Source of the DNA: a virus
Direction: 5' to 3' (one strand)
Virus record (IMG/VR): IMGVR_UViG_3300030101_004092
Span: 2,223-55,202 of that record
DNA length: 52,980 nt
The translations under genes and the position numbers were made by a program. The notes under the pieces were generated by a model. It was not told where the DNA came from. It saw only the letters and a program-made list of their open reading frames with translations, and did not search any database. Shown here piece after piece: positions 45,394 through 52,885 of this stretch (positions are counted from its first letter, which is position 1; each line of letters starts with the position of its first letter).

Positions 45394-45417
45394 TTGGAAA
45401 TATCTCAACATTTCCAA
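45394..45417. promoter_or_regulatory. Inverted repeat, possible operator
   Basis: TTGGAAAT and ATTTCCAA form a perfect 8-bp inverted repeat with an 8-nt spacer. It lies between the SSB terminator and the possible primase promoter. There is no T-run directly after it, so a regulatory site is more likely than a second terminator. Confidence 0.4.
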
Positions 45418-45420
45418 CAT

Positions 45421-45451
45421 AAAAAAAGGGAGAGGTAACCACACCTCTCCC
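45421..45451 (-). terminator. Intrinsic terminator after the SSB gene
   Basis: A perfect 9-bp stem GGGAGAGGT / ACCTCTCCC (45428-45451) with a 6-nt loop is followed on the - strand by seven T residues. It begins 11 nt after the SSB stop and divides the leftward arm into at least two transcription units. Confidence 0.9.
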
Positions 45452-45462
45452 ATAACCAAACA

Positions 45463-48547: not shown

Positions 48548-48563
48548 AGTCCTTTACCACCAA

Positions 48564-48585
48564 AAGCCCACATTGTGGTGGGCTT
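48564..48585 (-). terminator. Hairpin, possible weak terminator
   Basis: AAGCCCAC and GTGGGCTT form a perfect 8-bp stem with a 6-nt loop. On the - strand it is followed by only TT before GGTGG, so the T-run is short. It lies in the 90-nt gap between the 47-aa gene and the 70-aa gene, and may attenuate transcription or act as an RNA stability element. Confidence 0.45.
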
Positions 48586-48637
48586 ATTGGCTTGAATTAA
48601 CAACTAACTAAATTAATGTACGAGCCATATGAGAAAT

Positions 48638-49400: not shown

Positions 49401-49823
49401 TTATATTGTGGTTTCTGTACTTCTAAAATAACTTTTTTTCCAAATTGAGGTTTGTTCCTGAATCCTATCCTCTAAGTTCAAGTCATATATTTCATATGTA
49501 GTATAAACACCTACATAGTCAAAATAATCCCCTATCTCTGTGTGAATCTCGCCATCTTCACCTAAACCCACCAAAAAAGTATTATCTTCATTTTTTTTCC
49601 AAGTTTCAGTTACAAACTTTTCAATTGCCTTAACATCCTCATATGAGGGATACCATTTAAGGTATAAGCCCTCATAGATCGCTATGTCTTTATTATATTT
49701 TGTTTGTACCAAGTTTTTGTGAACAAAAACATCTAAATCAGGAAAATGTTGTTTGAGCAATTTTTCAAATGCTTTTACTTTTTTCTTTGGTATACCAATT
49801 ACCATATCACTTCTATATCCCAT
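49401..49823 (-). CDS. Conserved unknown protein (MGYRSDM-type), 140 residues
   Basis: MGYRSDMVIGIPKKKVKAFE opens the protein, followed by PDLDVFVHKNLVQTKYNKDI and AIYEGLYLKWYPSYEDVKAI. Later come FLVGLGEDGEIHTEIGDYFD and YVGVYTTYEIYDL. The MGYRS start is common to a group of phage and bacterial hypothetical proteins with an alternating beta sheet. No catalytic residues are evident. It overlaps the upstream gene by 11 nt. Confidence 0.68.
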   Translation of the reverse strand: MGYRSDMVIGIPKKKVKAFEKLLKQHFPDLDVFVHKNLVQTKYNKDIAIYEGLYLKWYPSYEDVKAIEKFVTETWKKNEDNTFLVGLGEDGEIHTEIGDYFDYVGVYTTYEIYDLNLEDRIQEQTSIWKKSYFRSTETTI

Positions 49824-50286
49824 TTTTAAAAACTTTAGTTAATACTTTCATTCTTGTTTCTGAATATGTAGGCATACCCCACTCCTTTATATTTTCCTCT
49901 TCCCTTTGTCTTACATATTCATCTTTCATTAATAGCAGAAAAACCTTTTCGCTAATATCTATCCAACCCTCAACATATTCGGGATTTGGCTCATCTCCAT
50001 TTTCTCCATATCTTGTTGGACTCATTACATCCCACAAAGAATTGTCTGCATAATCCCCCTCAATCGTGATTGAATCTCCACTCCAACTGCCAATTAAATT
50101 ATCTTCATCTTCATGTCGGAAATCTCCGCCACCTCTACCATTACCATTAGCTAACAGGAGTGATAATCCTTGTAACACTCCAGATCCATCAGAAGTAAAC
50201 TCCATTAACTTTAAGCCATTGCCGAAAGTGTGTGGGTTTAAATACTCCTTTTTTGTCTTATTACATATTTTATAATATTGACCCAT
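49813..50286 (-). CDS. Conserved unknown protein (MGQYY-type), 157 residues
   Basis: MGQYYKICNKTKKEYLNPHT FGNGLKLMEF, with a Gly-rich NGNGRGGGDFRHEDE and GSWSGDSITIEGDYADNSLW, and the end WIDISEKVFLLLMKDEYVRQ. This MGQYYK...GLKLMEF...GNGRGGGD pattern is a widespread hypothetical family in bacteria and phages with no known function. The upstream gap (50287-50410) holds the hammerhead-like remnant. Confidence 0.7.
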   Translation of the reverse strand: MGQYYKICNKTKKEYLNPHTFGNGLKLMEFTSDGSGVLQGLSLLLANGNGRGGGDFRHEDEDNLIGSWSGDSITIEGDYADNSLWDVMSPTRYGENGDEPNPEYVEGWIDISEKVFLLLMKDEYVRQREEENIKEWGMPTYSETRMKVLTKVFKNGI

Positions 50287-50342
50287 TTTATTTATTGTAT
50301 TTGATTAAACTTTAACTGGCTGATTATATCCTTTGCTATTAT

Positions 50343-50405
50343 CATTTAGGGAATATTTATAGGACTATCCCCACCAGTTTTCATGCTATTTCAAGCAATC
50401 ATCAG
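50343..50405 (-). ncRNA. Hammerhead-like sequence, probably degenerate
   Basis: On the - strand CUGAUGA (50405-50399) is followed by a 4-bp hairpin TGCT/AGCA with a T-T mismatch at its base. GAAA (50382-50379) follows, then a 7-bp hairpin GGGGATA/TATTCCC, then TAAATG. The order matches the two intact ribozymes nearby. However, the third helix is separated from GAAA by six unpaired bases and helix I cannot pair, so activity is unlikely. Confidence 0.25.
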
Positions 50406-50410
50406 AAGTT

Positions 50411-50686
50411 TTATAATCTACAAGCACACTGATAATCTTTAATTGTAGTAAATAAAGCACCACCATCATTACCCTCTTCATCCACTGTTGGATACATCCA
50501 AAATTTATCTCCATTTGGTTTTTGCATCAACATACAAAGAGGAGAATAATGCCACATCCAATCCTCTCTTTCATCATCAGGCATATATTCTACTCTTAAT
50601 ATTTTAGCACCCTCTAAATGTTTTCTTGCTTTATTAATCCAATATTTAGAAATTGGTATTCCATCTATTTTGTGTTCAGTTTTCAT
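50411..50686 (-). CDS. Unknown protein, 91 residues
   Basis: MKTEHKIDGIPISKYWINKA, then AKILRVEYMPDDEREDWMWH and KPNGDKFWMYPTVDEEGNDG, ending YQCACRL. The layout (KILRVEYM... ending in DEEGNDGGALFT) is that of a small beta-rich phage hypothetical family. Its start overlaps the upstream gene by 11 nt. A hammerhead-like remnant follows its stop. Confidence 0.67.
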   Translation of the reverse strand: MKTEHKIDGIPISKYWINKARKHLEGAKILRVEYMPDDEREDWMWHYSPLCMLMQKPNGDKFWMYPTVDEEGNDGGALFTTIKDYQCACRL

Positions 50687-50890: not shown

Positions 50891-51034
50891 TTAAAAGATT
50901 AAGTTATAAATTAATACACTCTCTCCTAATATGAATAATACAATCAGGAATGTTAAAAAGGATCTGAAAATCCATTTTACAATAGGGTTTTGTATTTCAT
51001 TTAATGAAAGTACACCCAATAAATAATTTTTCAT
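50891..51034 (-). CDS. Small membrane protein downstream of hammerhead ribozyme 1
   Basis: A 47-residue frame: MKNYLLGVLSLNEIQNPIVK, then WIFRSFLTFLIVLFILGESV and LIYNLIF, one strong membrane helix at about 21-46. Its ATG follows a leader, AAATTTAATAAA, that begins at the predicted ribozyme cleavage site 23 nt upstream. The frame is short, so the coding call rests on the leader, the spacing to the next gene and the ribozyme position. Possible roles are a membrane-active early protein or toxin. Confidence 0.58.
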   Translation of the reverse strand: MKNYLLGVLSLNEIQNPIVKWIFRSFLTFLIVLFILGESVLIYNLIF

Positions 51035-51052: not shown

Positions 51053-51108
51053 ACATTTACCCCTTTGTTAAGGGGTTTCGTTTGAATTTCACAAACTCAT
51101 CAGAATGT
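51053..51108 (-). ncRNA. Type I hammerhead ribozyme 1
   Basis: Read on the - strand: helix I ACATT (51108-51104) pairs with AATGT (51057-51053). Core CUGAUGA is at 51103-51097. Helix II GTTTG/CAAAC has a 7-nt loop (51096-51080). GAAA is at 51079-51076. Helix III CCCCTT/AAGGGG has a 4-nt loop (51075-51060). Then U51059 and A51058 form the UH site, with cleavage after A51058. All conserved core nucleotides are present. The open end is in helix I (type I). It fills the space between the stop of the 46-aa gene (51112) and the ATG at 51034. Confidence 0.9.
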
Positions 51109-52515: not shown

Positions 52516-52800
52516 TTAATTGTTTAGGTCGGTTAATATATATTTTCCCTCTTTTATATCTTTTTCAATTTCTCTCTTACTCTTATCAATGTTTAGAAAT
52601 TGCTTTAAATATTTTAAAGTAGTTCTCGAATAATCCCAATAATAACTATCTAAATATATTTTTCTTGACACTTTACATTCTTTAGCAATTATTGACTGAT
52701 ATGACTGAAAGAAAATTTCTTTCGGTGTGTTTATCTCGTACTGATTAGCTACCGCATTATAAGTTCGAGGACTTAATAAATTTTTCACTCTTGTTTTCAT
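52516..52800 (-). CDS. DUF8033-like small domain protein downstream of hammerhead ribozyme 2
   Basis: A 94-residue protein from the ATG at 52800 (MKTRVKNLLSPRTYNAVANQ; EIFFQSYQSIIAKECKV; YWDYSRTTLKYLKQFLNIDK). The PRTxNxVANQ, FQSYxxIIAK and YWDYSRTTxKYxxxFL pattern is shared by small plasmid and phage proteins of Bacteroidota and Firmicutes. The reading frame continues upstream to 52920 but that part reads through the ribozyme; the ATG at 52800 with its TTAAATTAAATATA leader is preferred. It is the first gene after the cleavage site of ribozyme 2. Confidence 0.7.
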   Translation of the reverse strand: MKTRVKNLLSPRTYNAVANQYEINTPKEIFFQSYQSIIAKECKVSRKIYLDSYYWDYSRTTLKYLKQFLNIDKSKREIEKDIKEGKYILTDLNN

Positions 52801-52820
52801 TATATTTAATTTAAGTAGGT

Positions 52821-52885
52821 TAAAATTTACCCCCCAATATTGAGGGGTTTCGTAGGTGTTTAAACCTTTACTCATCAGAATTTTA
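52821..52885 (-). ncRNA. Type I hammerhead ribozyme 2
   Basis: Read on the - strand: helix I TAAAATT (52885-52879) pairs with AATTTTA (52827-52821). Core CUGAUGA is at 52878-52872. Helix II 52871-52852 has 3+3 bp around a 2-nt AA bulge and a 6-nt loop. GAAA is at 52851-52848. Helix III CCCCTC/GGGGGG has one U-G pair and an AATATT loop (52847-52830). U52829 and A52828 form the UH site, with cleavage after A52828. The core is identical to ribozyme 1 while all three helices differ in sequence but keep their pairing. The stop codon of the upstream gene (52885-52883) lies within helix I. Confidence 0.92.

Follow-up and report, generated by a model that had tools for sequence, protein, structure and literature searches.

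A type I hammerhead ribozyme between two genes of a phage related to flavobacterial podoviruses and its counterparts at other phage gene junctions

Introduction

Type I hammerhead ribozymes have been described in bacteria and phages, where clustered copies flank small phage genes (PMC3088659; PMC6155905). Perreault et al. (2011) proposed that phage hammerheads cut long transcripts into mRNAs of operon or gene length. In that study, clusters of phage hammerheads cut themselves while being transcribed in vitro, and a group of three did so in E. coli (PMC3088659). What hammerheads do in prokaryotes is still given as an open matter in a later review (PMC6155905).

Here we describe a hammerhead, ribozyme 2, in a window of 52,980 nucleotides (bases 2223-55202 of the 55202-base virus record IMGVR_UViG_3300030101_004092). 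The phage that carries it is related to flavobacterial podoviruses. Judged on its sequence, the minus-strand element at 52885-52821 is a true hammerhead of type I, expected to be self-cleaving, and lies between two phage genes. It is one of three in an early leftward transcription unit, and the reading that we consider likely is that it splits a polycistronic early mRNA cotranscriptionally.

Structure and setting of ribozyme 2

Ribozyme 2 reads UAAAAUU CUGAUGA GUAAAGGUUUAAACACCUAC GAAA CCCCUCAAUAUUGGGGGG U A / AAUUUUA from 52885 to 52821 on the minus strand, with the predicted cut at the slash (Table 1). All bases of the type I core are present (C3 U4 G5 A6 N7 G8 A9, G12 A13 A14, A15.1-U16.1 and H17), and the cleavage triplet is GUA, H17 being A. 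Helix I is open and helices II and III are closed by loops, with 7, 6 and 6 base pairs, helix II being interrupted by an AA bulge. Helix I pairs UAAAAUU (52885-52879) with AAUUUUA (52827-52821), stem II is GUA-AA-GGU[UUAAAC]ACC-UAC (52871-52852), and helix III joins CCCCUC to GGGGGG in six pairs, one of them U-G, in addition to A15.1-U16.1. The G10.1-C11.1 pair that closes stem II is present in ribozymes 1 and 2 and is U-U in ribozyme 3.

The initial annotation had placed a type I hammerhead at 52821-52885, with exactly these three helices and beginning at a stop codon; each of these features is found on the minus strand, including the UAA at 52885-52883. Its distance of 27 nt to the ATG at 52800 holds when counted from the cleavage site, but from the end of helix I the distance is 20 nt. 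On its 5' side ribozyme 2 lies 95 nt from the end of the contig, so the upstream gene is incomplete. A Pfam search of the flanking proteins assigned no function.

Table 1. Positions of the hammerheads, their parts and associated features. Positions refer to the window unless a record is named.
Feature	Position	Strand	Remark
Hammerhead ribozyme 2, type I, whole motif	52821..52885	-	Model R1, 43.4 bits, E=4.3e-11
Ribozyme 2 helix I, 5' strand UAAAAUU	52879..52885	-	Bases 1-3 are the UAA stop of the upstream gene
Ribozyme 2 catalytic core CUGAUGA (C3-A9)	52872..52878	-	
Ribozyme 2 stem II module GUAAAGGUUUAAACACCUAC, AA bulge	52852..52871	-	Near-invariant in 14 other viral contigs
Ribozyme 2 GAAA (G12-A15.1)	52848..52851	-	
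Ribozyme 2 helix III hairpin CCCCUC-AAUAUU-GGGGGG	52830..52847	-	
Ribozyme 2 U16.1 (52829) and A17 (52828)	52828..52829	-	Cut predicted at 52828/52827, from homology (NUH rule of hammerheads)
Ribozyme 2 helix I, 3' strand AAUUUUA	52821..52827	-	Predicted 5'-OH start of downstream mRNA
27-nt leader of downstream gene after predicted cleavage at ribozyme 2	52801..52827	-	
Gene downstream of ribozyme 2, 94 aa	52516..52800	-	phrog_21575, E=2e-22
Hammerhead ribozyme 1, type I	51053..51108	-	R1 E=3.5e-12; stem II loop UGAAAU
Hammerhead 3, type I	50307..50411	-	Geometry scan; synteny with L127:3499
Type I hammerhead, Flavobacterium phage elemoA_7-9A	record 17347-17290 (L407:2791-2848, MT497017.1)	-	R1 E=1.4e-11
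Type III hammerhead, elemo phages	record 19139-19083 (L407:4584-4640, MT497017.1)	-	Rfam Hammerhead_3, 36.3 bits, E=9e-5, sub-threshold

Detection of the hammerheads in the window

As Rfam gives weak, sub-threshold matches only, 32 hammerheads of other contigs, and no sequence from the window, were used to build a covariance model of our own, R1. Four of the 32 share the stem II of ribozyme 2. Apart from ribozymes 1 and 2, nothing in the window scores better than an E-value of 0.1. A scan for type I geometry over the whole window gave three real matches, against one in 200 shuffles.

The best scores with the Rfam models RF00008 (Hammerhead_3) and RF03152 (RAGATH-1-hammerhead) were 26.2 bits for ribozyme 1 and 20.1 bits for ribozyme 2, neither of which reaches the gathering scores of 48.5 and 56.3. 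Clear hammerheads at ten related loci likewise fall below these thresholds, so the failure reflects the reach of the models; RF00008 represents the type III permutation whereas ribozymes 1 and 2 are type I. Routine annotation will thus miss ribozymes of this kind. BLASTN with ribozymes 1 and 2 as queries returned only chance-level matches among isolated phages.

Nearest-neighbour folding, which ignores tertiary contacts, favours another structure over the hammerhead (-17.4 against -13.2 kcal/mol). This and the missing Rfam call are what one would cite for an inactive element, either decayed or a chance resemblance, a reading that we find scarcely credible given the E-value of 4e-11 with an independent model, the conserved orthologue and the compensatory changes in relatives.

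Matches in the window to the Rfam families L20_leader, mcrA and alpha_tmRNA were far below threshold and were rejected. Two hairpins on the minus strand are recorded here as separate observations. At 45416-45460, where there is a weak match to the L20 leader, a GGGAGAGGU/ACCUCUCCC hairpin is followed by a U run and is likely to be an intrinsic terminator; at 48560-48600, in the early region, a AGCCCACCACAATGTGGGCTTTT hairpin is a possible further terminator.

Ribozymes 1 and 3

Ribozyme 1 has its predicted cut at 51058/51057, which leaves 23 nt to the ATG at 51034, and an upstream UAA is at 51114-51112. Hammerhead 3 reads AAACUU CUGAUGA U-UGCU..AGCA-U GAAA, after which come a long helix III, closed by ACUGG/CCAGU, and then UUA and AAGUUU. 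Its predicted cleavage site, UUA, lies at 50313/50312 and leaves 26 nt to the ATG at 50286, with an upstream UAA at 50413-50411. It scores only 9.3 bits under R1, presumably because of the long helix III and the U-U mismatch at 10.1/11.1.

Hammerhead 3 is supported by synteny, as a hammerhead in another contig (L127:3499) lies between homologues of its two flanking genes. Both have the U-U mismatch and A17, and their helix sequences are entirely different. The junction has kept a ribozyme despite complete turnover of the helices, which points to selection on structure at that place. Homologues of the 157-aa gene at 49813-50286 lie directly 5' of hammerheads in L127, L130, L132, L204, L206, L209, L234 and L238.

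Conservation in relatives

The element is conserved in evolution, with compensatory base changes. A contig fetched via the protein downstream of ribozyme 2 (L211) is 85.6% identical across 478 bp and contains an orthologue, which differs within the ribozyme only at one loop III base and by A17 to C. Every core and paired base is kept while the flanks diverge, with a 3-nt insertion just outside helix I.

In order to avoid circularity, all viral contigs were searched by core and stem II only. This gave 14 contigs, in 13 of which helices I and III are both present, compared with 29 of 6000 shuffled flanks. A 32-row alignment is 97.9% paired and has a covariation score of 0.98, against 0.21 in shuffles; its pair counts are given less weight as the rows were chosen by pairing and the measure is partly circular. 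About 100 further type I hammerheads with differing helices are found at gene junctions of viral contigs, many of them in related phages.

The initial annotation had counted two hammerheads and seen in them a selected RNA structure, to be checked by a covariance scan and a comparison with related phages. Both copies are strong, although a third (50411-50307) was overlooked. R1, made from the hammerheads of other phages, recovers ribozymes 1 and 2, and the proposal of selection is supported by the structure retained in L211, by compensatory changes in stem II of the elemo phages (below) and by the further junction hammerheads.

The distribution is patchy. Among 34 related records, many of them fragments, 15 had no match in the hammerhead search, and the element may therefore be dispensable. 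There was no match in Maribacter phage Panino or Cellulophaga phi14:2 and none above chance in MW202828. The stem II module had one match in bacterial and archaeal genomes, in Pseudomonas, which lacks the helices and was rejected as chance. A possible decayed copy at L240:10836 has the core and stem II module and is missing helix III. At L225:7930, upstream of a homologue of the 94-aa gene, a hammerhead has C-A in place of G-C at 10.1/11.1; this contig has Shine-Dalgarno-like leaders.

Placement at gene junctions

Together with hammerheads at numerous other gene junctions, ribozyme 2 forms a set whose phages are related to those of marine Flavobacteria. In 94 type I hammerheads checked, the distance from the cut to the ATG has a median of 26 nt and is mostly 19-38 nt. 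The upstream stop codon lies at -11 to +19 nt of the core in most of the 94, and in some it is part of the core (C-UGA) or of stem II (G-UAA). The orientation is sense in 85 of 92. The set follows a clear positional order, in which a stop codon is followed by the ribozyme and then, after about 26 nt, by the start codon. Most junctions in the window have no ribozyme.

One phage, G016 (L396, L397), has about nine hammerheads at successive junctions. It gives nine matches at early small-gene junctions, of which eight pass the geometry scan. Some of its hammerheads have helix III inserts of 41-65 nt.

The placement suggests that one cut yields two finished mRNA ends. Folding as RNA polymerase passes, the RNA would cut itself at a point 27 nt ahead of the start codon that follows. 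The upstream message would then carry the hairpins of stem II and helix III and a 2',3'-cyclic phosphate at its 3' end, and the downstream message would start with a 5'-OH, followed by a leader that is short and AU-rich. The main role of the cut would probably be to resolve a polycistronic early transcript into single-gene messages with defined, protected ends, letting neighbouring genes be expressed and decay separately. Cleavage in the cell, and its effects on expression and stability, are inferred; the cut may likewise stabilise the mRNA ends.

Alternatively, the ribozymes could be active but serve mainly as travelling cassettes, short pieces of homology that relocate from junction to junction or act as recombination points at which small early genes are shuffled, mRNA cutting being a tolerated by-product. 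The unit formed by ribozyme 2 and its leader (~91 bp, 81% identity) does recur at a different gene junction in L127, its stem II module is found upstream of several unrelated genes, and the distribution is patchy. We nevertheless regard this as unlikely, because the distance to the ATG is narrow and the junction shared by ribozyme 3 and L127:3499 retains a ribozyme after complete helix turnover. Separation of early messages is the reading that we prefer.

The stem II module and the U-U mismatch

The 20-nt stem II module of ribozyme 2 is near-invariant across 14 contigs in which helices I and III are not the same, whereas stem II is free to vary in other hammerheads. This constancy could indicate a regulated switch, with stem II as the binding site of a protein, an RNA or a metabolite that switches cleavage on or off. 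This appears quite improbable: the contact between loop II and stem I in fast hammerheads already predicts a conserved loop II, helix I has conserved A residues on either side, the module is rather short to act as a receptor, and its members may share recent common descent. The A directly outside helix I occurs in 87% and 83% of copies on the two sides, positions that are unpaired by definition, which somewhat favours A. We also considered a possible pseudoknot in which loop II (UUUAAA) would pair with the UUUAA that follows helix I; loop II hardly varies. The more specific proposal that GUAAAGGUUUAAACACCUAC is a receptor and the ribozymes are natural switches, through which a phage or host factor times the separation of early genes, seems to us highly improbable.

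The U10.1-U11.1 mismatch is a previously reported rare variant (PMC3088659; PMC6155905). All four hammerheads with U-U have A17, compared with 8 of 110 with G-C, in a small and related sample (Fisher p=7e-5). A search of viral contigs with the pattern CTGATGAT..TGAAAC gave no additional U-U hammerhead with the required geometry, so the class stays at four, and resting on four sequences the coupling is a lead only.

Hammerheads in cultured phages

The cultured elemo phages of Flavobacterium contain both a type I and a type III hammerhead (Table 1). The type I region is present in 68 of 68 records and the type III hammerhead is present in 68 records. Four aligned type I copies have two stem II haplotypes, GACTTTAATAGTC and GGTTTTAATAACC, each fully complementary, related by natural double exchanges (A-U to G-C and C-G to U-A); the only other core change among the four is at N7, the sole free core position. 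A hybrid stem II variant in elemoF_6-3D has two broken pairs. The type I copy of elemoA_7-9A lies in a gene gap that holds a reverse-strand ORF from the record's gene caller. Such an ORF is annotated over this copy in most records looked at, and the hammerheads themselves are unannotated.

Comparison with known systems

The core and topology of ribozyme 2 are like those of the known bacterial and phage type I hammerheads, and the arrangement itself was described in 2011 by Perreault et al.; its genomic setting is new. HHphage of haloviruses HF1/HF2 also lies close to the start codon of a phage gene, 13 nt upstream of it, but it has core insertions and precedes a helicase gene, whereas the core of ribozyme 2 is consensus (PMC3088659).

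The present set differs from the hammerheads of Perreault et al. in several respects. It is found in contigs related to flavobacterial podoviruses, it is tied to a stop codon and an ATG over ~90 loci, and it reaches up to about nine copies per phage. It includes the near-invariant 20-nt stem II module, and in this sample U-U is seen only alongside A17 (4/4 against 8/110). The module, this coupling and a test system that can be cultured are the details that are new here. The role of phage hammerheads has been at issue since 2011; the present set shows one phage with ribozymes at several consecutive junctions, and the cultured elemo phages with their Flavobacterium host provide a system for a direct test of that role.
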